64,000 nt of DNA from Ignavibacteriota bacterium (GTDB lineage: Bacteria; Bacteroidota; Ignavibacteria; Tepidaquicellales; Tepidaquicellaceae): assembly GCA_016218085.1 (NCBI GenBank), contig JACREY010000003.1, forward strand, positions 62,001-126,000. The letters run 5' to 3'. Made by a program: the position numbers and the translations under genes. This document shows positions 18,242 through 33,133 of the stretch, piece by piece. The notes under the pieces were generated by a model that saw nothing but the letters and a program-made list of their open reading frames with translations, did no database searches and was not told where the DNA came from. The first letter of the stretch is position 1. Each line of letters starts with the position of its first letter.

Positions 18242-18883
18242 ATGAAAAATGCAGATGCTGTAATATTTTTAAACGGAAAGATTCCTTTTAATTTACTTGA
18301 AATTTATAATATCAAAGAAAATTGCATTATTTGCGCTGACGGTGCGGCAAACATGCTGACAGTGCATAAAATCACTCCAAATATTATTATAGGCGATTTG
18401 GATTCAGTCAGAAAAGATGTTCTGAAAAAATACAGGAAAAAAGGTGTTGAAATCAGGAAGATAGATGAGCAGGAAACCACGGATTTTGAGAAAGCATTGC
18501 TTTACTGCGTGGAAAACAACCTGAAAAACCTGCTGATATTCGGTGCATCGAGCAAAAGACAGGACCACACATTGAATAATTACAGCGTACTGAAAAGATA
18601 TTGCAGAATATTAAACATAAAAATAATCGATTTAAAATTCGAAATATTTTTTATTGACAGGAGCATTTCATTTGATTACCCAAAAGGGAAATCAATCTCA
18701 TTGATGCCTATGCCGGTTGCTAAAGGGATTACAACGAAGGGTCTGAAATACAAGCTCGCAGATGAAGACCTTGAGTTCGGAATAAGAGAAGGCACTTTGA
18801 ACACCGCAAGCGGAAAATCCGTTTCAATAGAATTTAAAGAAGGCGATTTGCTTTTATTCAAAAGGCATTTTTTAAAAAGTTAA
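18242..18883 (+). CDS. thiN: Thiamine pyrophosphokinase
   Basis: Transfers pyrophosphate from ATP to thiamine, giving the cofactor TPP. The 213-residue length is normal. Motifs: ADGAANML near residue 32, GDLDS at 51-55, TTDFEKAL at 79-86, and a variant of the usual GRxDH motif, SKRQDHTLNN, near residue 105. No other thiamine genes are nearby and no TPP riboswitch was seen, so this is probably the salvage step. Seven bases separate it from the symporter gene downstream; whether that transports thiamine is not shown by the sequence. Confidence 0.92.
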   Translation: MKNADAVIFLNGKIPFNLLEIYNIKENCIICADGAANMLTVHKITPNIIIGDLDSVRKDVLKKYRKKGVEIRKIDEQETTDFEKALLYCVENNLKNLLIFGASSKRQDHTLNNYSVLKRYCRILNIKIIDLKFEIFFIDRSISFDYPKGKSISLMPMPVAKGITTKGLKYKLADEDLEFGIREGTLNTASGKSVSIEFKEGDLLLFKRHFLKS

Positions 18884-18889
18884 GAAAAT

Positions 18890-20290
18890 ATGATAAGCTT
18901 CAGCATTTATGATTACATATTGATAATCCTTTATTTTGCAGGCGTAATTTATATCGGGTTCAGAACGAAGATTGAAGACAAGAGCAATATAGATTACCTT
19001 GTAGCCGGAAGGGCTATTACACTGCCCGCATTCGTGGCAACTCTCGTTTCCACTTTTTACGGGGGGATACTTGGAATCGGAGAATTCACATACAGGTACG
19101 GCATTTCAAGCTGGGTAATGAACGCATTCCCCTATTATTTTTTCATAACAATTTTTGCTTTTTTTCTTGCAAAGAAAATCAGGAAGGCTGAGCTTTTTAC
19201 AATAGCGGACAAACTTGACCAGGCTTACGGAAAAAAGGTAAGCGTATTCGGAGCCTCGCTGGTTTTTCTGCTTGTGACTCCGGCACCTTATATCTTAATG
19301 CTGGGTATCCTGGTGCAGGTAATATTCGGTTTGTCCCTGAATGCTTCAATGCTCATATGCCTTTTGATATCGGTGATATTTCTTTTCAAAGGCGGACTTA
19401 AAGCGGATGTGAGAGTAAATATTTTCGAGTTTATTCTGATGTTTCTCGGATTCGGAATTATACTGCCATTCTGTTATTTCAAGCTTGGAGGTATTGATTA
19501 TCTATCTGCTAATCTTCCCGAATCGCACACAAGTCTGACAGGCGGGACATCAACCGGATATTTATTCGTCTGGTTTTTTATAGGAATGTGGGCACTGGTA
19601 GACCCCGGATTTCATCAGAGATGCTATGCGGCAAAAGACGGGGCAACCGCAAAAAAGGGAGTCCTTATTTCCCTGATATTCTGGTTCATTTTTGATTTTA
19701 TGACAACCATATCCGGCCTGTATGCATATGTACATCTTAAAAACCTTGAAAACCCTGCAATGTCTTACCCGCTTCTGGCAAATGACATCCTTCCTGCTGT
19801 TGCTAAGGGTTTCTTTTTTGTCGGAATGATTGCAACAATAATGTCTACTTTCCATTCATTGCTTTTTATTTCCGCGGCAACCCTTGGAAAGGATATAATA
19901 TGCAGAATTAGAAACATTGCAGACGAAAAAAATATTTACACAAAAATCGGAATTGCCGTAACTTCGGTTTTATCAATATTGATAGCAATTTTGATTCCTT
20001 CAGTAGTGCAGATCTGGTACACTATCGGAAGTCTGACTATACCATCACTACTGATAGGAGTAATTTCCTCTTATTCTGATAAATTAACTATAAACAAGAC
20101 AATAATTTTCAGTGCAATGATTGTTTCATTTCTATTTTCATTTACATCTTTCATATTTGGGAATATATATTCCGCCGGCGGAATACCGGTATATTTTTTA
20201 AATCTTGAACCGATGTATCCGGGATTATTTGCGGGAATTTTAATATATTTGTCAGGATTAATCTTTAATAAAAGGGAAAAAATTTATTAA
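18890..20290 (+). CDS. Sodium:solute symporter family transporter
   Basis: A 466-residue integral membrane protein with about 12-13 hydrophobic helices, of the SSS family: opening segment YDYILIILYFAGVIYIGFRT, IDYLVAGRAITLPAFVAT, and WALVDPGFHQRCYAAKD in the middle are family hallmarks. Substrate is not predictable from sequence; members carry sugars, amino acids, vitamins, urea or nucleosides. It sits between thiN and the patatin gene, with its stop overlapping the next start by one base (TAATG), which implies translational coupling. Confidence 0.88.
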   Translation: MISFSIYDYILIILYFAGVIYIGFRTKIEDKSNIDYLVAGRAITLPAFVATLVSTFYGGILGIGEFTYRYGISSWVMNAFPYYFFITIFAFFLAKKIRKAELFTIADKLDQAYGKKVSVFGASLVFLLVTPAPYILMLGILVQVIFGLSLNASMLICLLISVIFLFKGGLKADVRVNIFEFILMFLGFGIILPFCYFKLGGIDYLSANLPESHTSLTGGTSTGYLFVWFFIGMWALVDPGFHQRCYAAKDGATAKKGVLISLIFWFIFDFMTTISGLYAYVHLKNLENPAMSYPLLANDILPAVAKGFFFVGMIATIMSTFHSLLFISAATLGKDIICRIRNIADEKNIYTKIGIAVTSVLSILIAILIPSVVQIWYTIGSLTIPSLLIGVISSYSDKLTINKTIIFSAMIVSFLFSFTSFIFGNIYSAGGIPVYFLNLEPMYPGLFAGILIYLSGLIFNKREKIY

Positions 20291-23040
20291 TGAAGCTTTT
20301 AATAAAAATACAGATATTAATTATTTTATTTTTTATTAGCCCGCAGTCTTTTTCGCAAGTGACAGGAGACAGCCTGCAGACTTTAATTAAACTGGATTTA
20401 AAAGCAAAGCAAAATTCCGATACAACAAATTTTAATTTGTTTCCAAAGAATTACTCAAAAAAGAAAGTGGCTTTAGTTCTCAGCGGAGGCGGTTCGAGAG
20501 GTTTATCTCAGATTGGAGTAATAAAAGCTCTCGAAAAGAACAATATAAAATTTGATATGATTGTAGGAACCAGCATCGGGGCAATTGTCGGAGGATTATA
20601 TTCATCAGGTTATTCCGTAAACGAACTTGACAGCATCACAAAATCAATAAACTGGCAAAGCAAGCTAAGCCTTTCAAATAAAAACGAAAGAATTTTCTTA
20701 TATCTTGGACAAAAAAAAGAGCAGGACAAAGGTCTGATAACAATTTCAATTGACGGTCTGAAGCCAATACTACCGACATCTTTATCAAGCGGACATCAGA
20801 TAGCCCAGATATTCAATGTGCTGCTTCTAAATGCAAGATTCAAACCGAAAAAGGATTTCAGCTCACTAAGATTTCCTTTCCATGCCATTGCTTCAGATTT
20901 AGATAACGGCAACAGAGTCGTGTTGTCAAAAGGCAATTTAAGCGAATGCATTAAGGCGTCGTTTACATTCCCCCTGCTTTATTCACCTACTGTCATAAAC
21001 GGAAAAAACCTTGTGGACGGAGGCCTTACTGCCAATGTACCGGTTGATGTTGCAAAAGAAAAAGGTGCAGATATAGTGATTGCTGTAAATTCCACGAGTC
21101 CGCTTAAATCCAGTGAGGACCTGACGGACCCGCTAAATACCGCCGACCAGGTACTGTCAATCACTATGGCGCAGTTAAACCAGAAACAATTGCGTAATGC
21201 AGATTTTGTAATAACGCCTGAAATCGGAAATACGTTTGCCAGTGATTTCACAAAAATCGATTACCTGATAAAGGCAGGAGAAATGATTCCGCAGGTATCT
21301 ATTGATAAAATCAAAAGCATGATAGATTCCGCTGAATTATCTGCTTCGGATTACAAAGGATATTTTATAACCAATCCGACGGTGCGCATTAATTCACCAT
21401 TAATACCGGACAGCATAAAAAAGGAAATAACAGAAAGACAGGAAAATACTTTCGTTAAATATGTTTCGATTGAAGAGCAGATTAAAAGGTTTTATGATAT
21501 TGGATATTTTTCCGATGTTTACGCTTCAGTAAAAAGGGACTCATTTGGAGTTAAGCTTGATTATAATTTTATTGATAATCCTTTACTGAACGGGATATCT
21601 CTTGGAAGATTCGATAACATTTTATATGAAACAGTAAAGAGATACGAAATTGAAAACAAGGGAAAGGTAATAAACCATAATAGTTTATATAATCTGTATT
21701 ATGACCTGCTTGGTTTACTTAAACAGAGCAGCTATTCAGCGGCTGACATTACAAAATTTTATTTTAACCACAGCAGCGGGATTCTTGAGATTAGTGTTAC
21801 CGACGGCTCAATTGGCAGAATTATCATCAACGGAAACAGCAAGACCAACAACAATGTCATAGATCGGGAGATTACTTTTGAAAATAAAGGAATTATAAGA
21901 AAATCCGACCTGGAGCAAAGCCTTCAGAACATATACAGCACAAATCTTTTCAGGCAGTTAAGCATAAATTTGAGCGATACATCTGAAACCGGGAAACCTG
22001 ATGTCAATATCAATGTAGTTGAAAAAAGTTCAAGGAACTTCAGATTTTCGATTCGCGGAGACAATGAAAGAAAACTTCAGCTATACTTAGGGATTAGCAA
22101 CGAAAGTCTGTTTGGAACAAATAATGAAATTAACGGCTCATTTACGGGAGGATTAAAGAACCAGGAATACAAAGTTGAGTTCAAGTCAAACAGATTTTTC
22201 AGCACCTACCTGACATATAACTTGTCGGGTTATTATAAATTCAGGGATATTTTTAGTTATACTCAGATTAAGAATTTTGATGACAATTCATATTCAAGAA
22301 ACCAGATTGGAGAATACAGGGATACGAAATACGGATTGAGTTTTTTGCTTGGCACTCAGGTCGGAAGGATAGGAACGGTTTATTCTCAAATATCATACGA
22401 AAAGAGTTTCAGAGATTCGACATCAGGTGAAGTCAGAACCGAATCGGATTATAAATCGATAAAACTGAAAATCGGGGGAAAAATTGACACTCAGGACAGG
22501 TATCCATTTCCCACAAAAGGAACAATAATAAATTATTCTTACGAAACATCCCAGAAAATATTACAGGATAACATTTCATATTCCAAGCTTCTTTTTGATT
22601 TCGAACATTCGGCCACAGTAGGTAAATATTTCACGCTGCATCCGAAGTTGACCTTCGGTTTTGCCGACAAGACTACACCGCTGATGGAACAGTTCTCACT
22701 TGGCGGAGAAGATTCATTTTTCGGTATGCTGGACGATGAATTAAGGGGAAGACAGCTTTTAACTGCATCCCTGGAATACAGGTTTCTGATTCCGTATAAA
22801 TTATTTTTTGAAACATATCTGGCAATGAGATATGACCTAGGACAAATCTGGGATAATGCACAGGATATTAGGTTTAAGGATTTAAGGCACGGAGTTGGTT
22901 TATCTGTTATGTTCGATTCACCGGTAGGAAAAGCAAGTTTCTCAGCCGGAAGAAGTTTTTTTACAAATAAAGGCATTACTAAAGATTCGTTTATGTTCGG
23001 TCCATACACGTTTTACTTTTCTATTGGTTACGACCTGTAA
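20290..23040 (+). CDS. Patatin-like phospholipase fused to a BamA-type barrel (type Vd autotransporter-like)
   Basis: A 916-residue outer-membrane lipase. After a signal peptide (1-23) comes a patatin domain with oxyanion motif GGGSRG (66-71), nucleophile motif GTSIG (Ser95) and DGG (Asp243), so the Ser-Asp dyad is complete. A linker and POTRA-like region follow (about 500-590, with GRIIINGNSKTNNNVIDREI), then a C-terminal barrel (about 600-916) with GGEDSFFGMLDDELRGRQ and a terminal strand ending in an aromatic-rich FYFSIGYDL. This architecture matches PlpD-type proteins. Expected to hydrolyse phospholipids or lysolipids at the cell envelope. Start overlaps the symporter stop. Confidence 0.93.
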   Translation: MKLLIKIQILIILFFISPQSFSQVTGDSLQTLIKLDLKAKQNSDTTNFNLFPKNYSKKKVALVLSGGGSRGLSQIGVIKALEKNNIKFDMIVGTSIGAIVGGLYSSGYSVNELDSITKSINWQSKLSLSNKNERIFLYLGQKKEQDKGLITISIDGLKPILPTSLSSGHQIAQIFNVLLLNARFKPKKDFSSLRFPFHAIASDLDNGNRVVLSKGNLSECIKASFTFPLLYSPTVINGKNLVDGGLTANVPVDVAKEKGADIVIAVNSTSPLKSSEDLTDPLNTADQVLSITMAQLNQKQLRNADFVITPEIGNTFASDFTKIDYLIKAGEMIPQVSIDKIKSMIDSAELSASDYKGYFITNPTVRINSPLIPDSIKKEITERQENTFVKYVSIEEQIKRFYDIGYFSDVYASVKRDSFGVKLDYNFIDNPLLNGISLGRFDNILYETVKRYEIENKGKVINHNSLYNLYYDLLGLLKQSSYSAADITKFYFNHSSGILEISVTDGSIGRIIINGNSKTNNNVIDREITFENKGIIRKSDLEQSLQNIYSTNLFRQLSINLSDTSETGKPDVNINVVEKSSRNFRFSIRGDNERKLQLYLGISNESLFGTNNEINGSFTGGLKNQEYKVEFKSNRFFSTYLTYNLSGYYKFRDIFSYTQIKNFDDNSYSRNQIGEYRDTKYGLSFLLGTQVGRIGTVYSQISYEKSFRDSTSGEVRTESDYKSIKLKIGGKIDTQDRYPFPTKGTIINYSYETSQKILQDNISYSKLLFDFEHSATVGKYFTLHPKLTFGFADKTTPLMEQFSLGGEDSFFGMLDDELRGRQLLTASLEYRFLIPYKLFFETYLAMRYDLGQIWDNAQDIRFKDLRHGVGLSVMFDSPVGKASFSAGRSFFTNKGITKDSFMFGPYTFYFSIGYDL

Positions 23041-23095
23041 AATCATAACAATTTTACTTTATTTTCGTATCTACAATTAGTATAAAAATGATAAT

Positions 23096-25612
23096 TTGAG
23101 GTTTATAAATAAATATTCGGACAGTTCAATCAGGCTTCTGTTTGTATTAATTACATTATACTGCCTGCTAATAAGCGGAATTCCGTTTTTCAGAGCAACA
23201 TTCAGCCAGAAACTGACTATGGACGGCAGCATTAAAAAATACGTATTTGAAGAAGAAAAGCTGTCTGTGGTCGTTGCTTTTGTTCCCCCTGAAAGTCAGG
23301 CAGAGAAGGCAGGATTAAAAAGCGGCGATGTTATTAAAAATGTAAACGGAAGAGACATACGCGATATTTATGACCTGAACAGGGTTGTAAGCAGCACTCC
23401 CGAAGGGTTTTCCGCAAGATACATCGTGGAAAGAGACGGGGTTTTATTAAGCCTTGATATTGGAGTGTACAGGTATTTCCACCTGGTATTTTACATATTC
23501 TTTTCTCTGGGTTTCGTATTCCTTGTGAACGGATTTCTCGTTGGGTATTCGAGACCTAAAGAATTTTCATCCCAGATTTTCTTTTTCCTCGGATGTGCGG
23601 CATCTCTTGGATTTCTATATTATGGCGGAGTCTGGCATTACACAGGATTCAATAACATATTTCACTACAGTTTTCTTGCCGGAATCAGCTTATTCTATCC
23701 GCTCTTTCTGCATTTTTTCACGATTTATCCGATTAAATACGAATTCAGGAAAAGAAAGCTTAAAATCTTTCTTGCTTATTTATACATTCTGATTATTATC
23801 CTTATTCCTAATCTTATTGATATAGATACCAGCAACAAAACATTCGAAACAATTCTCGAGGTGATTTATTATACACCGTTTCTGTATCTTGTCGCCGGGA
23901 TAGTATTATTCATAAATTCCTACAGAAAAATTTCTGACACAGCACTTAAAAAATCTTTAAGGATAATACTATACGGATTTTTAATCGGAGGTACAGGGCT
24001 GATTTATTATTTCCTTATTTTCACACCGATGCTCTCCAGAGGAGGAATAAATTTCAATCCTCTTTACCGTCTGCCTGCAATTTTTGTTCTTGCAATCCCT
24101 TTTTCATTTGCATATTCAATTTTCAAATATAAAATCCTCGATACGGAAATAATTGTAAAAAAGATACTTGTATTTGGGATACTCGCATTGTTCATTACTG
24201 TTGTATATTTAATGCTCTTGTACATTATTAATACAATACTGGTTCAGTACACAGGCGACAGGACAATACTAACGGTTGCATCAATCGTGATTATAATATT
24301 TACTTTCGATTACGTTAACAAGTGGGCAAACAATTTTGTGGATAAGAGATTTTACAGAAAGAGATACAACTACCGAAAATCACTTCTTGATTTTTCCGAA
24401 GAACTTCCGTTCATAAACAATATGAGGGAAGTAATCGAAAAAGTAAATTTTGCAATACGGGAAGCTATGGGCATCTCAATTGTAAAATTCTGGATTATTG
24501 ACGAAGAGTTTATAGGTATAATGCAAAGCTTTTACAGGATTAAGGATAAAGGTGAAGGGAGCGTATACAAGACCAGAGATATGATTTTCAAAAAGATTTT
24601 CGATAATGATACAGAGCATAAATTTCTTTATAATTCGGATTTAGCAGGTATGGATATTCCCGATGAACACAGCAATTTCATAAAAAAGGAAGGGATTGTC
24701 CTTTCTGTTCCGATTACGATAAAAGACAGGCTGATTGGGGCTATCAATTTCGGGAGAAAGCCATTTGATACTCCTTACTCTGATGAAGACATTGACCTCC
24801 TGAAAACGATTGCAATACAGACTGCCATCATCTTTGAGAATTCAAGACTGAAGATTAACGAAACAAAGAAGCAGAAAATGGAAGAAGAGCTAAAAATAGC
24901 AAAAAATATTCAAAATGCTTTGATTCCAAAATCTGATATGAATATCAGCCGCCTGGACATTTCAGGCATCACTGAGCCGGCAAAGGAAGTTGGAGGTGAT
25001 TTCTTCGATTACATCAGACTTGATGATAATAATATATTAATTACTATTGCAGATGTTTCAGGAAAGGGAGTTCCCGCCGCACTTTACATGACAAAGCTTC
25101 AGGCGCTTCTGAGATTTGCATCCAAAATTTTCAAGACTCCAAAAAGCATTCTTTGCGAAGTCAACAAGCAGATTTACAGAAAGCTGGAAAAGAATTTCTT
25201 TGTTACTATGAACCTTGCGCTTTTCAATATTTCAGAAGGGAAAATGCAGCTTTCCAGAGCAGGGCATAATCCGGTTCTTTTTTTCAGGGACGGTGAATGC
25301 AGGATTCTACAAAGCAAGGGAATGGGACTCGGGCTTGACAATGAAAAGGTGTTTAATGAAAACCTCGAAGAAATTGAAATCGGGCTGAGAAAAAACGATG
25401 TTTTCATATTTTATACAGACGGATTAGATGAGGCGATGAATAAAAACAGGGAAGAGTACGGATTAAAAAGTATTATAGACATCACACGGAAAAACGTAAA
25501 TTCAGATGCGAAGGAACTGCAGAATGTGCTTATGGAGGATATAAAACGTCACAGAAACGGAGCGGAACAGAATGATGATATTTCAATGGTAATAATCAAA
25601 ATCAAAGAGTAA
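23096..25612 (+). CDS. Membrane PDZ-multiTM-GAF-SpoIIE (PP2C) phosphatase, first of two paralogs
   Basis: Predicted membrane-bound serine phosphatase. In order: membrane helix (about 12-30), extracytoplasmic PDZ domain (55-123, with EKAGLKSGDVIKNVNGRDI), a block of about seven membrane helices (127-385), GAF domain (about 430-570), short coiled coil, and a PP2C SpoIIE catalytic domain (630-838). The metal-binding aspartates are present: GGDFFDYI, DVSGKGVPAALYM, FYTDG and QNDDIS. Such RsbU-like enzymes usually dephosphorylate an anti-sigma antagonist; no such partner is in the window. The start is TTG at 23096, since the ATG at 23088 runs into a stop. Four bases from its paralog. Confidence 0.9.
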   Translation: MRFINKYSDSSIRLLFVLITLYCLLISGIPFFRATFSQKLTMDGSIKKYVFEEEKLSVVVAFVPPESQAEKAGLKSGDVIKNVNGRDIRDIYDLNRVVSSTPEGFSARYIVERDGVLLSLDIGVYRYFHLVFYIFFSLGFVFLVNGFLVGYSRPKEFSSQIFFFLGCAASLGFLYYGGVWHYTGFNNIFHYSFLAGISLFYPLFLHFFTIYPIKYEFRKRKLKIFLAYLYILIIILIPNLIDIDTSNKTFETILEVIYYTPFLYLVAGIVLFINSYRKISDTALKKSLRIILYGFLIGGTGLIYYFLIFTPMLSRGGINFNPLYRLPAIFVLAIPFSFAYSIFKYKILDTEIIVKKILVFGILALFITVVYLMLLYIINTILVQYTGDRTILTVASIVIIIFTFDYVNKWANNFVDKRFYRKRYNYRKSLLDFSEELPFINNMREVIEKVNFAIREAMGISIVKFWIIDEEFIGIMQSFYRIKDKGEGSVYKTRDMIFKKIFDNDTEHKFLYNSDLAGMDIPDEHSNFIKKEGIVLSVPITIKDRLIGAINFGRKPFDTPYSDEDIDLLKTIAIQTAIIFENSRLKINETKKQKMEEELKIAKNIQNALIPKSDMNISRLDISGITEPAKEVGGDFFDYIRLDDNNILITIADVSGKGVPAALYMTKLQALLRFASKIFKTPKSILCEVNKQIYRKLEKNFFVTMNLALFNISEGKMQLSRAGHNPVLFFRDGECRILQSKGMGLGLDNEKVFNENLEEIEIGLRKNDVFIFYTDGLDEAMNKNREEYGLKSIIDITRKNVNSDAKELQNVLMEDIKRHRNGAEQNDDISMVIIKIKE

Positions 25613-25616
25613 TGTT

Positions 25617-28148
25617 ATGAAGATTTTCAATTTCACTGAAAACAGGCTAAGATTTATTTTTATTTCGACAGCAATTATGTTTCTTTTATTCAGTTCAGTA
25701 TCTTTTTACAATAACATGATTGCTAGAAAAATGACCACGGACGACTGCCTATGGGAGCCGGTCAGCGGCAATTCGTCTAAAGACAGTGCCCTTTACATTA
25801 CTCAGATTATTCCGGGAGGAGTTGCGGACGAAGCCGGATTAAGAGACCTGGATATTCTATTAGCAATAAACGGTGAAAGGTTCAAAGGTTCATCCGAAGC
25901 AATGTTCCTTTTGAACAAGTACAGTAATGAAATAATCACTTACACCATTATCAGAAACAATGTAGTTTACAATGTAAACATCTGGGTATATAAATATTTC
26001 AATATATTATACCTCATTTCCTGGCTTCTCGGATTTGGTTTTCTTAGTGTTGGTCTTATGGTCGGATATTCCAATCCTAAAGAATTGACATCGAAGTTAT
26101 TGTTCTTTCTCGGCTGTGCGGCATCTGTCGGATTGATTTCAAATTCAAGTCCTCTGGGATATTATATAATAAATATAAATTCAACTGCTGTAAAGATATT
26201 ATATCTGATTATAACAATTTCTTTTACAAGCTGTTTTATCATACTTGCGCCGCTGCTTCTGCACTTCCTGCTAACATTTCCAAGGAAATATGAATTCAAA
26301 CACAGAAAAAACATTCTAAGATTGATATATTACGTGCCGTTTATTTATCCGGGCTTTATAACTGCTTATAGTTTTATTGCGGGTAAAGGAATAAAACTGA
26401 ATTTTTCAATCTTTCTGGTGTTTTTGCTTTCGTACCTTTTCATAGGAATGTTTTTCTTTATAAGATCATATTTAAAAATAACTGAGCCCGCACAGAAAAA
26501 ATCTCTGCGCATTATCAATTACGGATTTTTAATAGGTATTCTGGGAATCGGTTATAATTTCTTTCTGAACCTGAAGCAGAAGCCGGATTTTCTTGTAAGT
26601 CCCCTGCTTATGGTTCCATGTGTGCTTGTCCTTGCAATTCCCGTGTCTTTTGGTTTTGCAATTTTCAAATACAGGATTCTCGATACTGAATTCGTAGTTA
26701 AAAAAGGGCTGGTATTCGGAATAGTTACAACAATCATAATCGGATTATATTTCCTGCTTATATACGCACTCGATAATTTCCTTAAAGGATATGTGCAGGT
26801 CAGAAGCCAGTTCGTGACGATTGCATTCATACTAATATTCACGTTTACGTTCGATTACGTTAATAAACGAGCAAAGGAATTTGTTGACAGGCTTTTTTAC
26901 AGGGAAAGATATAACTACAGAAAGTCCCTGCTTTCATTTTCACGGGAGTTGTCTTTTATCAGCAATATAAACGAGCTTCTCGAAAAAATTTGTGATTCTG
27001 TCTCCACTACAATGGGTATTAAGGTTATTAACCTGTGGCTTAACGACAAGACTTATTACTTGATGCTGGATAATAACAGTCTCTGCAAAAATTTCAAGGA
27101 TATGGAAAATTTTGCTGATACCGCACTGAATAAATTATTCAGGAAAAACAGACTTCCTGTTCAGCTTAATGAATCGAATCTTTTCGAATACAATTTTTCG
27201 GAAGAAGAAAGAAAGTTGATTAAGGAAAACAATATTTCTCTGTCCATTCCGATATTGCTTAAGAATAAGCTTATTGGCGCACTGAATTTCGGACCCAAGC
27301 CGTCGGGAAAGGCTTATTCGGATGAGGATATTGATTTATTAAAGGCATTTGCAATACAGAGCGCAATAAGTTTTGAAAATTCCAAGCTGAAGTTGGAAGA
27401 AATCAATAAAGAGAAAATAGAAGAAGAACTTAAAATTGCCAAGGGCATCCAGACAGGACTTCTTCCGAAAGATGATTTTAATATAGAAAAACTTGATATT
27501 GCAGGCTATTCGGAGCCTGCAAAAATTATCGGCGGAGATTTTTACGACCTGATTAAACTTAGCGAAACAAAACTTCTTCTGGTAATAGGTGATGTTTCAG
27601 GAAAAGGAATTCCTGCCGCTCTCTATATGTCTAAAGTGCAGGCTATGATACAGTTTGCATCCCAAATGTTCGAAAACCCGAGAGATATTCTTATCGAGGT
27701 CAATAAACAGATTTTCGAGCAAATTGACAGAAAATCTTTTATTACTATGGTAATTGCCCTGTTTGACCTTGAAAATAATTTCGTAAAAATTTCAAGAGCA
27801 GGACATAACCCTGTATTGTTTTCTAAAAACGGACAGATAGATATTCTGAAGAACACAGGACTCGGTCTTGGAATGGAAAAAGGTAAATTTTTTGAACCTA
27901 ATCTGGAAGTTACAGAAATTAAGTTTAATCCCGATAACTTATTCCTTTTTTATTCCGATGGTTTGAATGAAGCAATGGATATTCATAGAAACGAATTCGG
28001 ATTGGATAACGTTATAAAAATCATATCTGAAAATAAAACAAAACCTTCAAAAGAAATACAGACTTCCCTGCTTGATGCTGTAGGCAATTTCAGAGGCGAA
28101 GCCGAACAAAATGACGATATTACATTCGTGGTTGTGAAGGTGAAATAA
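25617..28148 (+). CDS. Membrane PDZ-multiTM-GAF-SpoIIE (PP2C) phosphatase, second paralog
   Basis: An 843-residue protein of the same architecture as its upstream neighbour and similar along its length: PDZ with VADEAGLRDLDILLAING, the shared segment LLFFLGCAASVGL in the membrane block, shared FVVKKGLVFGI and YNYRKSLLSFSRELSFI after the helices, GAF, and a PP2C domain with GGDFYDLI, DVSGKGIPAALYM, FYSDG and QNDDIT. All catalytic aspartates are retained, so both copies should be active. The PDZ domains have diverged most, suggesting different outside inputs to similar outputs. The ATG lies four bases after the first gene, so the two are surely co-transcribed. Confidence 0.92.
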   Translation: MKIFNFTENRLRFIFISTAIMFLLFSSVSFYNNMIARKMTTDDCLWEPVSGNSSKDSALYITQIIPGGVADEAGLRDLDILLAINGERFKGSSEAMFLLNKYSNEIITYTIIRNNVVYNVNIWVYKYFNILYLISWLLGFGFLSVGLMVGYSNPKELTSKLLFFLGCAASVGLISNSSPLGYYIININSTAVKILYLIITISFTSCFIILAPLLLHFLLTFPRKYEFKHRKNILRLIYYVPFIYPGFITAYSFIAGKGIKLNFSIFLVFLLSYLFIGMFFFIRSYLKITEPAQKKSLRIINYGFLIGILGIGYNFFLNLKQKPDFLVSPLLMVPCVLVLAIPVSFGFAIFKYRILDTEFVVKKGLVFGIVTTIIIGLYFLLIYALDNFLKGYVQVRSQFVTIAFILIFTFTFDYVNKRAKEFVDRLFYRERYNYRKSLLSFSRELSFISNINELLEKICDSVSTTMGIKVINLWLNDKTYYLMLDNNSLCKNFKDMENFADTALNKLFRKNRLPVQLNESNLFEYNFSEEERKLIKENNISLSIPILLKNKLIGALNFGPKPSGKAYSDEDIDLLKAFAIQSAISFENSKLKLEEINKEKIEEELKIAKGIQTGLLPKDDFNIEKLDIAGYSEPAKIIGGDFYDLIKLSETKLLLVIGDVSGKGIPAALYMSKVQAMIQFASQMFENPRDILIEVNKQIFEQIDRKSFITMVIALFDLENNFVKISRAGHNPVLFSKNGQIDILKNTGLGLGMEKGKFFEPNLEVTEIKFNPDNLFLFYSDGLNEAMDIHRNEFGLDNVIKIISENKTKPSKEIQTSLLDAVGNFRGEAEQNDDITFVVVKVK

Positions 28149-28157
28149 ATAAATTTT

Positions 28158-29828
28158 TTATTTCAGCAATATCATTTTCTTTGTTTCAGAGTATTCACCG
28201 GCTATTAATTTACAAAAATAAATTCCTGATGATAATTTATCCGCATCGAATGATACTTCATATTCACCAGGTTTCTGCCTTTCATTTACCAGGGTTTCAA
28301 TCTCTCTGCCCATTATATCATATACTTTTAGCGTAATAAATCTTGAATCTTTAATTTGAAATCTTATAATCGTGCTTGAATTAAACGGATTAGGATAATT
28401 TTGTTCCAAGTGAAAAGTATTTGGTAATTCATTTGATATTTGTCGGATACCTGTTGGTTGATTGTATTTGATGGCAGTATACCAAGGTCCACCTGCAACA
28501 TAAACATTCCTCAGATTATCAACAGCAATACCACGCGGCGATTCTCCATTTGCAGAATACGTTCTCATGCACCACAATTGCTCGCTGGTTGGAGAGTATT
28601 TTATCGTTGCATAATGTGGTCGAATTCCCTGGTAACTATTTACGGCTACGTAAACATAACCCAGATTATCCAATACAAGTGCCACACCCCAATCAGCTGC
28701 ATAATGATCATAACCATATATAGCTACCCATTTCTGAACTCCTGTTGAGTCATACTTTACTGTAGCACAATCTATTTCCTGGGTACTATTCATTGATTCA
28801 CCTGTAACATAGACATTTCCCAAATTGTCCACAGCAATTGAATTGGAGAAATTAGTGCTAAAGCTGCTGCTGTCACGTTTATAAAATGATGCCCATATCT
28901 GGTTGCCGGAAGAGTCATATTTTATGGTTACATAATTGCGTCTCGGTCCCCAATTTGGATACATTTCTCTGCCGGTTGCTCCGGTAACATAAACGTTTCC
29001 GGAATTGTCAACCTTTATATCTACAGCCGAATCACCTAAATTTGCAGGACCGTTATATCTTGTAACCCATTTCTGCGTACCAGAAGAATCAAATTTTATT
29101 GTTGCAATATCATTGAAAGTTGTGTCACCTGTGCTTACTCCAGTAACGTAAACATTTTCATTATTATCAAGCACGATACTTGATGGCTGGTTCACTGCAT
29201 CAACTTGTGTACCCGGTCCGTGATATTTAGCCACCCACTGCTGAACACCTGAAGAGTCATATTTTATTAATGTGTAGTTGTAACCATTCGTAAAACAAGT
29301 GCTTCCTGCTACGTAAATGTGGAAAGAATTACTCACAGCGATTGATACCTTGCCGGTTGGCCATATCTGATAATATTGGTCATAGAATATTGAAACCCAT
29401 TTTTGTACACCTGATGAGTCATATTTTATTGTTGTGATTTTTCCCGGATTACCGCTGATAGTTACAGGAGCTTTTCCGGTTACATACACGTTATCATTTT
29501 TATCTATAGCTATCGACCGGGCAGAGGCAATGCCCGTAGTATCGCCGGGCCAGTTGTAACGTGTTACCCAGTTCAGATTACCCCATTTATTAAATTTCAC
29601 TGTTGCATAATCATGGATATTAGCCGAGCGATAACTCGTTCCAGTCACATAAACATTTCCATAACTGTCAAGGCACATTGCCCAAACTCCGTCATTATTG
29701 TAAGGTCCAATATATCTTGCCTCCCATTCCTGCACAACCTGGCATACACAATTATTAATGTAAGATGAGCTATGTATAATTAAGAGCAGGTAAAAAATGA
29801 GTTTTAATTTTAATCCCTTATGATGCAT
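28158..29828 (-). CDS. SBBP beta-propeller repeat protein with type IX secretion signal
   Basis: A 556-residue secreted protein. A signal peptide (about 1-30) is followed by about eight repeats of roughly 50-60 residues, each with the pattern LDNxGNVYVTGxS ... YATVKYDSSGVQKW, i.e. SBBP repeats forming a beta-propeller. The last 80 residues are a type A sorting domain: QNYPNPFNSSTIIRFQI, LKVYDIMGREIETLV, and SGIYFCKLIAGEYSETKKM. It should cross the outer membrane by the type IX system and attach to the surface or be released. It converges on the phosphatase pair with ten bases between stops; an AT-only hairpin there (GAAATAAA/TTTATTTC) could be a weak shared terminator. Confidence 0.92.
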   Translation of the reverse strand: MHHKGLKLKLIFYLLLIIHSSSYINNCVCQVVQEWEARYIGPYNNDGVWAMCLDSYGNVYVTGTSYRSANIHDYATVKFNKWGNLNWVTRYNWPGDTTGIASARSIAIDKNDNVYVTGKAPVTISGNPGKITTIKYDSSGVQKWVSIFYDQYYQIWPTGKVSIAVSNSFHIYVAGSTCFTNGYNYTLIKYDSSGVQQWVAKYHGPGTQVDAVNQPSSIVLDNNENVYVTGVSTGDTTFNDIATIKFDSSGTQKWVTRYNGPANLGDSAVDIKVDNSGNVYVTGATGREMYPNWGPRRNYVTIKYDSSGNQIWASFYKRDSSSFSTNFSNSIAVDNLGNVYVTGESMNSTQEIDCATVKYDSTGVQKWVAIYGYDHYAADWGVALVLDNLGYVYVAVNSYQGIRPHYATIKYSPTSEQLWCMRTYSANGESPRGIAVDNLRNVYVAGGPWYTAIKYNQPTGIRQISNELPNTFHLEQNYPNPFNSSTIIRFQIKDSRFITLKVYDIMGREIETLVNERQKPGEYEVSFDADKLSSGIYFCKLIAGEYSETKKMILLK

Positions 29829-30245
29829 AACGGTTTGTAAGTAAACTGTTTTTATTTTGTGTTTACTGTTTAATGTCCAATAAGGCGTTTCCGTAATTAT
29901 AAAAACGAAATCTTTTATATCTATTTATTATAAAGTTATAATGTAAATAATAAATAAGCAAGACTCATTTTAAATCCTAATTAAGCAACAGAATTTCAAC
30001 ATGTTATTAAATTTATATAAGTTATCATAAATGCTTTTAATTGCAAGGGTTAAATAATCAAAACCGTATCTTAAAATACTTTTAGTTACCTTGAAAATTT
30101 AATTGTTATAATAATGATGATTTATAATCCCGTTACTTTCTTTATGTTGTTGATTATTAATAGTTTTAATATTCCTACTTTATTACTCTGTATTATATTT
30201 AAATAAATCTGTTTAAATTACAATCTAAACACAAAATAATCAATT
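29829..30245. other. 417-base intergenic region, no gene seen
   Basis: Very AT-rich divergent spacer between the SBBP gene and purB. I see no ORF, RNA or strong hairpin. It presumably contains both promoters, but no sequence stands out enough to assign. Confidence 0.5.
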
Positions 30246-31541
30246 ATGATACCCCGTTACTCGAGAAAAGAACTTGCACAAATTTGGTCGGACGAAAATA
30301 AATTCAAAATCTGGCTGGATATTGAAATTCTTGCCTGCGAAGCGCAGTGCAAGCTTGGTCTGATTCCCGAAAAAGCAATGAAAAACATTAAGAAAAAAGC
30401 AAAATTTAACGTTGCCAAAATCCTGAAAATCGAGGAGACAGTGAAGCACGATGTAATTGCATTCCTTACCAATGTTGGAAGTTATGTAGGGCTCGATTCA
30501 AGGTTTATTCATATGGGAATGACAAGTTCGGACGTGCTGGATACGGCATTATCCGTACAGATGAAACAAGCGGGGGAAATTATTTTAAGAGATTTATTAG
30601 ATTTGAAAAAAGTTTTATATAATAAAGCACTGCAGTACAAATACCTGGCAATGATAGGGAGAACGCACGGAATACACGCAGAACCGGTAACGCTCGGTCT
30701 GAAATTCGCTTTATGGTATGATGAAACCCAAAGGAATATCGAAAGACTTGTACTTGCAATTGATAATATTTCAGTTGGGCAGGTTTCCGGAGCAGTGGGT
30801 ACTTATGAGCACATCTCTCCTTACGTAGAAAAATATGTATGCAATAAACTCGGACTTAAAACAACAAACATATCCACGCAGATTTTACAACGCGACAGGC
30901 ACGCAGAATATATGAATACATTAGCCGTGATGGCATCCTGCATCGAAAAATATGCTACCGAAATAAGACATCTTCAGAAAACAGAAGTTCTGGAAGTTGA
31001 AGAATCATTTTCAAAAGGACAAAAAGGCTCTTCGGCAATGCCGCATAAGAAAAACCCCATTACTTCCGAACAGCTTTCAGGACTTGCGAGGGTTTTAAGA
31101 GGCAACGCTATGGCTTCTATGGAGAATATTGCACTCTGGCACGAAAGGGATATTTCGCACTCTTCAGTGGAGCGAATTGTTGTGCCGGATTCTACGATTC
31201 TGATGGATTATATACTGAATAAATTCACCGCACTTGCAGAGAATCTTGTAGTTTACGAAGACAATATAAAAAAGAATTTAAATCTCACGAACGGACTAAT
31301 ATATTCGCAGAAAGTTCTGCTTAAGCTTATTGATAAAAAGATGAAAAGAGAAGATGCATACAGAATCACGCAGAATATTGCTATGAAATGCTGGAAGGAA
31401 AAAATCAGTTTTCAGGAATTGGTAAAAAAAGACAGGGAAGCAATGAAATATCTCGACTTAAAAGATTTAAAGCACATCTTCAGCGGAGATGTGCTTAAGA
31501 AAAAAGTCGATTTCATTTTCAACAGAGTCGGGATAAAATAA
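30246..31541 (+). CDS. purB: Adenylosuccinate lyase
   Basis: Acts twice in purine synthesis, releasing fumarate from SAICAR and from adenylosuccinate. The 431-residue length is standard. The start is MIPRYSRKELAQIWSDENKF, the common PurB opening. HMGMTSSDVLDTAL near residue 90, GRTHGIHAEPVTLG near 138, and the superfamily signature GSSAMPHKKNP with flexible-loop serines 262-263 are all present, so the enzyme should be functional. Monocistronic; its stop lies two bases from that of convergent lexA. Confidence 0.97.
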   Translation: MIPRYSRKELAQIWSDENKFKIWLDIEILACEAQCKLGLIPEKAMKNIKKKAKFNVAKILKIEETVKHDVIAFLTNVGSYVGLDSRFIHMGMTSSDVLDTALSVQMKQAGEIILRDLLDLKKVLYNKALQYKYLAMIGRTHGIHAEPVTLGLKFALWYDETQRNIERLVLAIDNISVGQVSGAVGTYEHISPYVEKYVCNKLGLKTTNISTQILQRDRHAEYMNTLAVMASCIEKYATEIRHLQKTEVLEVEESFSKGQKGSSAMPHKKNPITSEQLSGLARVLRGNAMASMENIALWHERDISHSSVERIVVPDSTILMDYILNKFTALAENLVVYEDNIKKNLNLTNGLIYSQKVLLKLIDKKMKREDAYRITQNIAMKCWKEKISFQELVKKDREAMKYLDLKDLKHIFSGDVLKKKVDFIFNRVGIK

Positions 31542-31542
31542 C

Positions 31543-32166
31543 CTACACTCCCTGATACTGCCTGCGAAGTTCGATAACCTTGCCGATAATCTGGAACGGG
31601 CGGTTTATGATTGATTTATATCTCGAATTTGCAGCTTCCAGATAGGCTTTGATTCTAGTATTCCTCAAAGTCTTACAGGTTGCTTCATCATCGAGCAGGG
31701 CAATCACTATTTCACCGTCATTTGCACTGTCCTGTTTACGGACAATAACAACATCACCGTCGTAAATTCCCGCATCCTGCATGCTGTTCCCTTTAACTTT
31801 AAGCGCGAAATGGAGTTTATGACCTTTGCGGCTTTTCTCCATAGTGATGTAACCCTGGATGTTATTATCGGCAAATATCGGCTCGCCTGCGGCTACATTA
31901 CCGTAAAGCGGAATGTAATTGTAATCCGGCTTATCCTTCATTTCGGCTCCGTCTGTGCCGCGAATCAGGACGAATCCCCTTGCAGTATCGGGTTTTCTGT
32001 CGAGGTATCCTTTTTTCTGCAAAGCGGAAATGTGGTCCTGAACCGTTCCAACTGTTATATCGAACTTATACGCGATTTCCTTGAAAGTCGGCGGATAAGA
32101 ATTATCGTAAGTATATTTTTCAATATACTCCAATATCTTCTTTTGTTTTTTTGTTAGATTTTCCAT
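31543..32166 (-). CDS. lexA: LexA repressor
   Basis: SOS-response repressor that self-cleaves when RecA filaments form. The ATG at 32166 gives 207 residues, the usual length. N-terminal winged helix-turn-helix: PTFKEIAYKFDITVGTVQDH (26-45). C-terminal S24 protease: cleavage site Ala93-Gly94 in VAAGEP, nucleophile Ser128 in KGNSMQD, general base Lys165 in DEATCKTL. A longer open frame reaches 32244, but it would overlap the upstream gene, adds unrelated residues, and is not needed by the family. I could not recognise a LexA operator in the 49-base upstream gap. No SOS partner such as imuB or dnaE2 is in the window. Confidence 0.95.
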   Translation of the reverse strand: MENLTKKQKKILEYIEKYTYDNSYPPTFKEIAYKFDITVGTVQDHISALQKKGYLDRKPDTARGFVLIRGTDGAEMKDKPDYNYIPLYGNVAAGEPIFADNNIQGYITMEKSRKGHKLHFALKVKGNSMQDAGIYDGDVVIVRKQDSANDGEIVIALLDDEATCKTLRNTRIKAYLEAANSRYKSIINRPFQIIGKVIELRRQYQGV

Positions 32167-32215
32167 AATTAAATATGGGATAATTTTATATGATATGCAA
32201 GAGAAAAATTCAGAA

Positions 32216-33133
32216 TCATACTCCCCAGTAAAATCCCGTGGCAATCAGTTCAAAAACCCCGTTATTATTCTGGTAGAGATCGTATCCGATTCCCTCGTAA
32301 TACCCGCTTTCACTGACAAGCTCATATTGCCCGTCGCCGTTGTAATCCACCGTTCCAAGCAGCATATAATAATTAAATTCGGTTTTGAATTCAACTACCG
32401 TTTTAGCTATTTTTCCGATTTCGCTTACAATAAAAATTCCGCTTGCATATTTATCGAATGCAACTCTTTTTCTGTAAGACACGGCATATTCTTTTTTATC
32501 CGAATTCAGAAAATTTGCTTCAAAAACTTTTATCTCAGCCTGGTCATCTACGGTTTCATAAATATCCTCCCCATATTCAATCTTTTCTTCATATTCCTTC
32601 AGAAATGCGGTTACTTTGGCAACTACTTCCTTATCGCTTACGGTTTTATAATTTATTTTACTTATGTTTTTATGCTTAGAACAAATCATTATATTGTTAT
32701 TGTAATCAACAGTATCTTCCGTCAGGTTCGCACGGTTATCGAGTACCGGATTTAACTCATAGCCAATAGGTACATTATCATACAGCTGGTACCCTTTTAT
32801 TTCACTTTTGAATACCTTGTTATGAGTTGAAACGTAAAAAACATCACCCATTTTCATTCCCGTAAGTCCGTCGAAAGTGCTTATGTATTTATTAAAATAA
32901 TATTTCTCATCCTGCTTATCCTTGCCTATATATTTATTTACCAGAGTTTCGATTTTTTTATATCTTTCTTCAAAATTATAATTGGGATTATCCGATGAAG
33001 GATTTTCATCCATTAGAATTTTATCCTTATCCATCCTGCAAAAGAATACATCGCTTTTAACTTTATCCTGTGAATAAGAAAGCGATGATGCAATAATAAA
33101 AGCAATCAAAAAGATTACTGATGTTTTTTTCAT
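32216..33133 (-). CDS. Secreted protein of unknown function
   Basis: A 305-residue protein with a signal peptide (1-21, ending SLSYSQ). The mature part has no motif I recognise. It is acidic and Tyr-rich, and near the C-terminus shows LGTVDYNGDGQYELVSESGYYEG, which resembles FG-GAP-like or calcium-binding Asp-rich repeat units found in surface proteins. The start is two bases from the stop of the PD40-OmpA gene upstream on the same strand, so they are co-transcribed, suggesting an envelope role. Confidence 0.72.
   Translation of the reverse strand: MKKTSVIFLIAFIIASSLSYSQDKVKSDVFFCRMDKDKILMDENPSSDNPNYNFEERYKKIETLVNKYIGKDKQDEKYYFNKYISTFDGLTGMKMGDVFYVSTHNKVFKSEIKGYQLYDNVPIGYELNPVLDNRANLTEDTVDYNNNIMICSKHKNISKINYKTVSDKEVVAKVTAFLKEYEEKIEYGEDIYETVDDQAEIKVFEANFLNSDKKEYAVSYRKRVAFDKYASGIFIVSEIGKIAKTVVEFKTEFNYYMLLGTVDYNGDGQYELVSESGYYEGIGYDLYQNNNGVFELIATGFYWGV

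Follow-up and report, generated by a model that had tools for sequence, protein, structure and literature searches.

Two adjacent genes of an Ignavibacteriota bacterium, here called W1 and W2, encode predicted sensor phosphatases. As judged by sequence comparison, their sensor half is homologous to that of ComP, the histidine kinase of the Bacillus ComQXPA system, and collinear with it module by module; their C-terminus is a phosphatase of the SpoIIE/PP2C type. In the open-access literature we found no characterised PDZ-SpoIIE protein with this domain order, in agreement with a preliminary description of the locus. Both halves are already known, and their combination is uncharacterised in that literature yet widespread. 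Probably these proteins are ComP-type receptors with a dimeric linker which controls a phosphatase for an RsbV-like protein. The stretch of DNA that was analysed, referred to as the window, comprises 64,000 nucleotides of contig JACREY010000003.1. Both open reading frames were confirmed on the plus strand, with 4 bases between them (Table 1).

Table 1. Features of the W1-W2 locus (positions within the window).
Feature	Position	Strand	Residues	Remarks
Patatin-POTRA-Omp85 outer-membrane protein gene	20290..23040	+		directly upstream of W1; possibly same operon
W1, predicted PDZ-multiTM-GAF-SpoIIE phosphatase	23096..25612	+	838 aa	TTG start; apparent derived duplicate
W1 TM1	23120..23206	+	9-37	AlphaFold2 helix
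W1 PDZ, without D-x-C-x-W	23213..23476	+	40-127	Pfam, AlphaFold2, profile comparison
W1 nine-helix membrane block, ComP-like	23483..24352	+	130-419	AlphaFold2, hhalign
W1 GAF	24422..24781	+	about 443-562	Pfam, AlphaFold2
W1 long helical linker from GAF to PP2C	24782..24922	+	563-609	AlphaFold2
W1 PP2C/SpoIIE phosphatase domain	24947..25606	+	618-837	metal aspartates kept
W2, predicted PDZ-multiTM-GAF-SpoIIE phosphatase	25617..28148	+	843 aa	apparent ancestral type
W2 TM1	25638..25724	+	8-36	AlphaFold2 helix
W2 PDZ	25734..25994	+	40-126	Pfam, AlphaFold2, profile comparison
W2 D-D-C-L-W motif at TM1/PDZ junction	25740..25754	+	42-46	
W2 nine-helix membrane block, ComP-like	26004..26897	+	130-427	AlphaFold2, hhalign
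W2 GAF	26967..27320	+	about 451-568	Pfam, AlphaFold2
W2 long helical linker	27321..27458	+	569-614	AlphaFold2
W2 PP2C/SpoIIE phosphatase domain	27486..28142	+	624-842	metal aspartates kept

Pfam analysis recognised in W1 and W2 a PDZ domain (E 6e-8 and 6e-7), a GAF domain (E about 2e-6 and 5e-6) and a SpoIIE/PP2C domain (E 3e-40 and 1.5e-39). A family PDZ profile matched the solved PDZ domains of RseP and DegP with E-values of 1e-18 to 2e-16; one of its eleven rows carries a single wrong letter, which is immaterial at such values. AlphaFold2 models, based on alignments of 29 sequences (mean pLDDT 81 and 82), contain a first transmembrane helix (TM1), strands and helices in PDZ-like order, nine long helices and the GAF domain, which a helix of about 46 residues connects to the PP2C domain. 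The presence of PDZ, GAF and PP2C domains in both paralogues, as given in the preliminary description, is thus confirmed, but its block of seven helices is not: both models have one helix before the PDZ domain and nine after it, ten in total. A seven-helix receptor of the 7TMR type is excluded by these nine helices and by the match of the block to ComP. The predicted topology would place the PDZ domain outside the cytoplasm.

All aspartates of the metal-binding motifs are present in W1 (GGDFFD 633, DVSGKG 653, TDG 774, NDD 826) and, within the same motifs, in W2 (639, 659, 780, 832), and the aligned PPM aspartates are invariant across 29 sequences. The PP2C domain is as active-looking as had been proposed, and the analysis supports a predicted function of W1 and W2 as sensor phosphatases. 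Among known structures the domain matched SiaA best (Z 28.4), followed by RsbU-RsbW of Rv1364c (26.8), RssB (25.0), SpoIIE (23.6) and RsbX (21.9); in searches with the full models, almost all matches listed were PP2C chains. The RsbT-binding RsbU_N domain (PF08673) was absent from both proteins in the Pfam analysis.

In ComP, a PDZ domain reportedly lies between TM1 and TM2, and the protein is described as having ten helices in total (PMC9620489). As references we used three ComP proteins from plasmid records, flanked by comX- and comA-type genes; a ComP query sequence served solely to locate these records. The profile of 26 family members aligned with the three proteins at an E-value of 5e-19; the 379 aligned columns are collinear and reach from the PDZ domain to where the GAF domain begins. 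By module, hhalign gave 2e-7 for the PDZ domain, 1e-9 for the transmembrane block and 2e-5 for linker plus GAF, all of these values being single comparisons between few sequences. BLASTP of W1 against ComP gave 5e-7. The controls (reversed ComP, column-shuffled ComP and the sodium symporter of the window) reached only 0.1-0.95 and exclude a likeness driven by composition; together with the collinearity they make chance similarity unlikely. A comQXPA-like cluster was also seen on a plasmid recorded as Stenotrophomonas (L029; CP031730.1, 65732-72987), which looks like a misassigned Bacillales plasmid or a case of transfer.

ComP and the W proteins thus share TM1, a PDZ domain in what is predicted to be the first loop outside the cytoplasm, a total of ten helices and a GAF-like domain. 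The outputs differ, HisKA_3/HATPase_c in ComP and SpoIIE/PP2C in W1 and W2, and because of this C-terminus the latter are not filed as ComP. Further differences are a D-x-C-x-W motif at the PDZ domain, which marks the apparently ancestral W2 type, and the gene neighbourhood: a comQ-comX-comP-comA set is absent beside W1 and W2, whose neighbours encode TPK, an SSF symporter, patatin-Omp85, PurB and LexA. Other known systems share less. PrsK (TIGR02916, the XrtA/PEP-CTERM histidine kinase) has the combination of membrane helices and GAF domain (E 7e-16 for W1 and 2e-15 for W2, under the curated cut-off), but no PDZ was matched and its output is a histidine kinase. SpoIIE of B. subtilis and SiaA of Pseudomonas are likewise membrane-anchored PP2Cs, acting on STAS-type proteins. 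SpoIIE has ten transmembrane segments (PMC5468089); both lack a PDZ domain, however, and the membrane and regulatory parts of SpoIIE are, by description, of another kind.

The profile of W1 and W2 matched 192 of the 197 genomes of the class, with dozens of matches near full length in many families. This rules out a lone oddity of one genome and, together with the ComP-type sensor half, speaks against an isolated, unusual sensor. Named relatives are from Ignavibacteria and a few Acidobacteria, Zixibacteria have a version without PDZ, and a plasmid search with W1 gave matches limited to GAF/PP2C. Within the same phylum, the same sensor is found with HisKA/HATPase outputs (L268-L272, L277) and with SpoIIE outputs (L273, L274), indicating that the output has been exchanged within the phylum. 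Such exchange is a prediction of the published model of linker-mediated phosphatase dimerisation, in which sensors are swapped among PP2C, histidine kinase and GGDEF proteins (PMC12143880). The genome of the window contains a third PDZ-multiTM-SpoIIE paralogue of 958 residues (L145:4098-6971, plus strand; contig C3, about 194097-196970), a type that is present in other families as well.

The chromosomal neighbourhood is conserved within the family (f1). The patatin-Omp85 gene directly precedes the W gene or genes in all 18 loci of this family that were read, and the order is nearly always TPK, SSF symporter, patatin-Omp85, W, PurB, LexA; in the window this order spans positions 18242-32244. 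In a second family (f4) the patatin-Omp85 gene adjoins the W orthologue in 10 of 10 loci. Between W2 and PurB the window carries an SBBP-repeat gene (28158-29828, minus strand) whose product has a Por secretion tail, at a position that is empty in most relatives.

Both W1 and W2 types occur in 10 of the 18 loci, W2 alone in seven and W1 alone in one, so that eleven pairs are known once the window is counted. A W2-type copy split into several frames was noticed in one genome (G184, L163:2397-4916), the W1 of which is nearly whole. All W1-type copies form one group in the tree of the family (support 88/70 with a long-branched member, 97/90 without it); the duplication is therefore an early event in the family, with losses afterwards. 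From these comparisons, W2 appears as the ancestral type and W1 as the duplicate which has lost D-x-C-x-W and whose PDZ domain has diverged most. Identity between W1 and W2 is 20.5% in the PDZ domain and 20.7% in TM1, as against 42% in TM2-10, 37% in GAF, 70% in the coil and 49% in PP2C; the mean PDZ identity is 48% in the W2 group and 32% in the W1 group. The PDZ parts thus do differ most, as had been noticed earlier, and the different ligands deduced from this are a reasonable reading of such divergent domains.

Of the 87 proteins read, 69 carry the D-x-C-x-W motif after TM1, including the examined single-copy members of families f1, f4, f10, f21 and f25. W1-type copies all lack it, as do family f2 and the third paralogue type. 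Its cysteine, Cys44 in W2, is the sole cysteine of the W2 PDZ region. Sequence alignment would put the motif at about the position of the carboxylate-binding loop of the PDZ domain: global or MAFFT alignments place it there weakly, and local hhalign omits it.

PP2Cs of the SpoIIE class dephosphorylate STAS anti-anti-sigma factors (PMC11418112). In three sister families (f10, f21 and f25) the W orthologue is the last gene of an operon, preceded by genes for a membrane SpoIIE phosphatase (tmE), rsbV, rsbW and a GAF-SpoIIE protein (gafE). Of the 29 loci whose flanks were long enough, 27 contained recognisable rsbV and rsbW genes, always on a single strand, and Pfam confirmed the rsbV/rsbW operon domains in the scanned examples. 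This linkage makes an RsbV-like STAS protein the likely substrate. The advice to look for STAS and anti-sigma partners elsewhere in the genome proved fruitful, as both STAS and anti-sigma-like proteins were found. A STAS protein, a HATPase_c_2 kinase and a GAF-SpoIIE protein form a separate cluster on another contig (L141:5706-8231). The RsbV of this cluster shares 54-63% identity with its operon counterparts and has retained the phospho-acceptor serine of RsbV/SpoIIAA. In the RsbW-like protein of the cluster, the DxG box that binds ATP has Tyr in place of the Asp kept by the relatives, and kinase activity is therefore doubtful. A second, stand-alone RsbW-like ATPase with the DxG box kept lies among unrelated neighbours (L143:6275-6679) and is a possible alternative kinase for STAS proteins. 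The genome also contains a stressosome-like cluster (L142:1779-7529) of an RsbR-like protein, a second STAS protein, an RsbT-like ATPase, a PP2C, a PAS histidine kinase carrying an RsbU_N domain and a response regulator.

In none of six genomes, that of the window and those of five relatives, did a SigB/F/G-type sigma factor exceed the TIGR02980 cut-off, and a SigB-like target was rejected on this basis. RsbU, RsbP, RsbZ and OsaC resemble W1 and W2 in the helical linker and in a SpoIIE-type PP2C with all metal aspartates, a resemblance extended by the rsbV/rsbW linkage of the sister families. W1 and W2 differ from them by the integral-membrane PDZ-TM-GAF sensor, the missing RsbU_N and the lack of a recognised SigB/F/G factor. 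The phosphatases might act on substrates other than RsbV, either one of the four orphan stand-alone STAS proteins of the genome or a SiaC-like switch that governs a different enzyme, for which SiaA as the closest PP2C structure could speak. We regard this as rather unlikely, since the operon linkage in all three sister families is to rsbV/rsbW, and the operon-type RsbV is the one conserved in the genome of the window.

We favour RsbV as substrate and propose that W1 and W2 work as dimers in the inner membrane, where these sensor phosphatases would signal through a dimeric linker, by analogy with RsbU. TM1, the extracytoplasmic PDZ domain, the nine-helix block and GAF would form the sensor, and a PP2C of the RsbU/SpoIIE/RssB type the output. 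A ligand at the PDZ/membrane sensor, presumably outside the cytoplasm, would alter the pairing of the long helical linker, possibly modulated by a ligand of the GAF domain. This change would switch the phosphatase on or off towards a Ser-phosphorylated RsbV-like STAS protein. Dephosphorylated RsbV would then bind the RsbW-like kinase and so free the target of this kinase. Since W1 has lost the motif and its PDZ domain has diverged faster, the pathway probably receives another signal through W1 than through W2. Counting against the mechanism, the Rsb-like module of this genome is on another contig, and W1 and W2 are located beside unrelated genes. The altered DxG box of the RsbW-like protein, the negative search for a SigB/F/G factor and the four orphan STAS proteins as alternative substrates weigh in the same direction.

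As to the signal, the PDZ domain may bind C-termini of mis-assembled outer-membrane proteins, as in DegS, perhaps that of patatin-Omp85 itself, the phosphatase then triggering an envelope-stress response. The domain belongs to the DegP/RseP class and is predicted to be extracytoplasmic as in the DegS/RseP proteases of the sigma-E pathway, although W1 and W2 have no protease domain and would signal by dephosphorylation. An envelope ligand is possible because the neighbouring patatin-Omp85, adjacent in all loci read of f1 and f4, usually has a typical outer-membrane terminus (...FSIGYDL/I/F); the adjacency is limited to these two families, the W genes of others being next to rsbV/rsbW or alone. 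With D-x-C-x-W lying roughly where the carboxylate-binding loop would be and a peptide pheromone as the presumed signal of the closest sensor, ComP (PMC9620489), envelope quality control seems unlikely. Binding of C-termini is frequent among PDZ domains; the sensing of misfolded or processed C-termini put forward in the preliminary description was derived solely from the name PDZ, and we do not adopt it.

The homology of the entire sensor half to ComP could alternatively point to a quorum-type receptor for a peptide or small molecule with phosphatase output. We consider this improbable: no comX/comQ-like pair was seen on inspection of the genes around W in the window and in the loci read, and ligand classes may change under a constant fold. 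The proteins might also sense thiols or the redox state at the surface of the membrane, with the D-x-C-x-W cysteine engaged in a disulfide between subunits or in cofactor binding and with W1 as a redox-blind copy. The distribution of the motif and the single cysteine of the W2 PDZ region would agree with this, but the role of the motif may be structural alone, namely to pack the PDZ domain against the membrane, and we judge this reading very unlikely.

Retaining the ComP-type receptor which controls a phosphatase for an RsbV-like protein, one could extend it to a system of the whole class Ignavibacteria. A D-x-C-x-W receptor would respond to a cue from the envelope or from the redox state, with a possible tie to patatin-Omp85, and control RsbV/RsbW with a target not of the SigB type, the tandem duplicate serving another cue. 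In this full form the proposal is speculative and has little probability.

The sensor phosphatases described here link a receptor type of Gram-positive quorum sensing with partner-switching phosphatases, two fields that are usually treated apart. Kinases and phosphatases have been proposed to swap their sensors, and these proteins are a natural case of it: one phylum carries the same sensor with either output. The D-x-C-x-W motif offers a short target for a first mutation. For a class of mostly uncultured bacteria, W1 and W2 name a probable input to the RsbV/RsbW switch.
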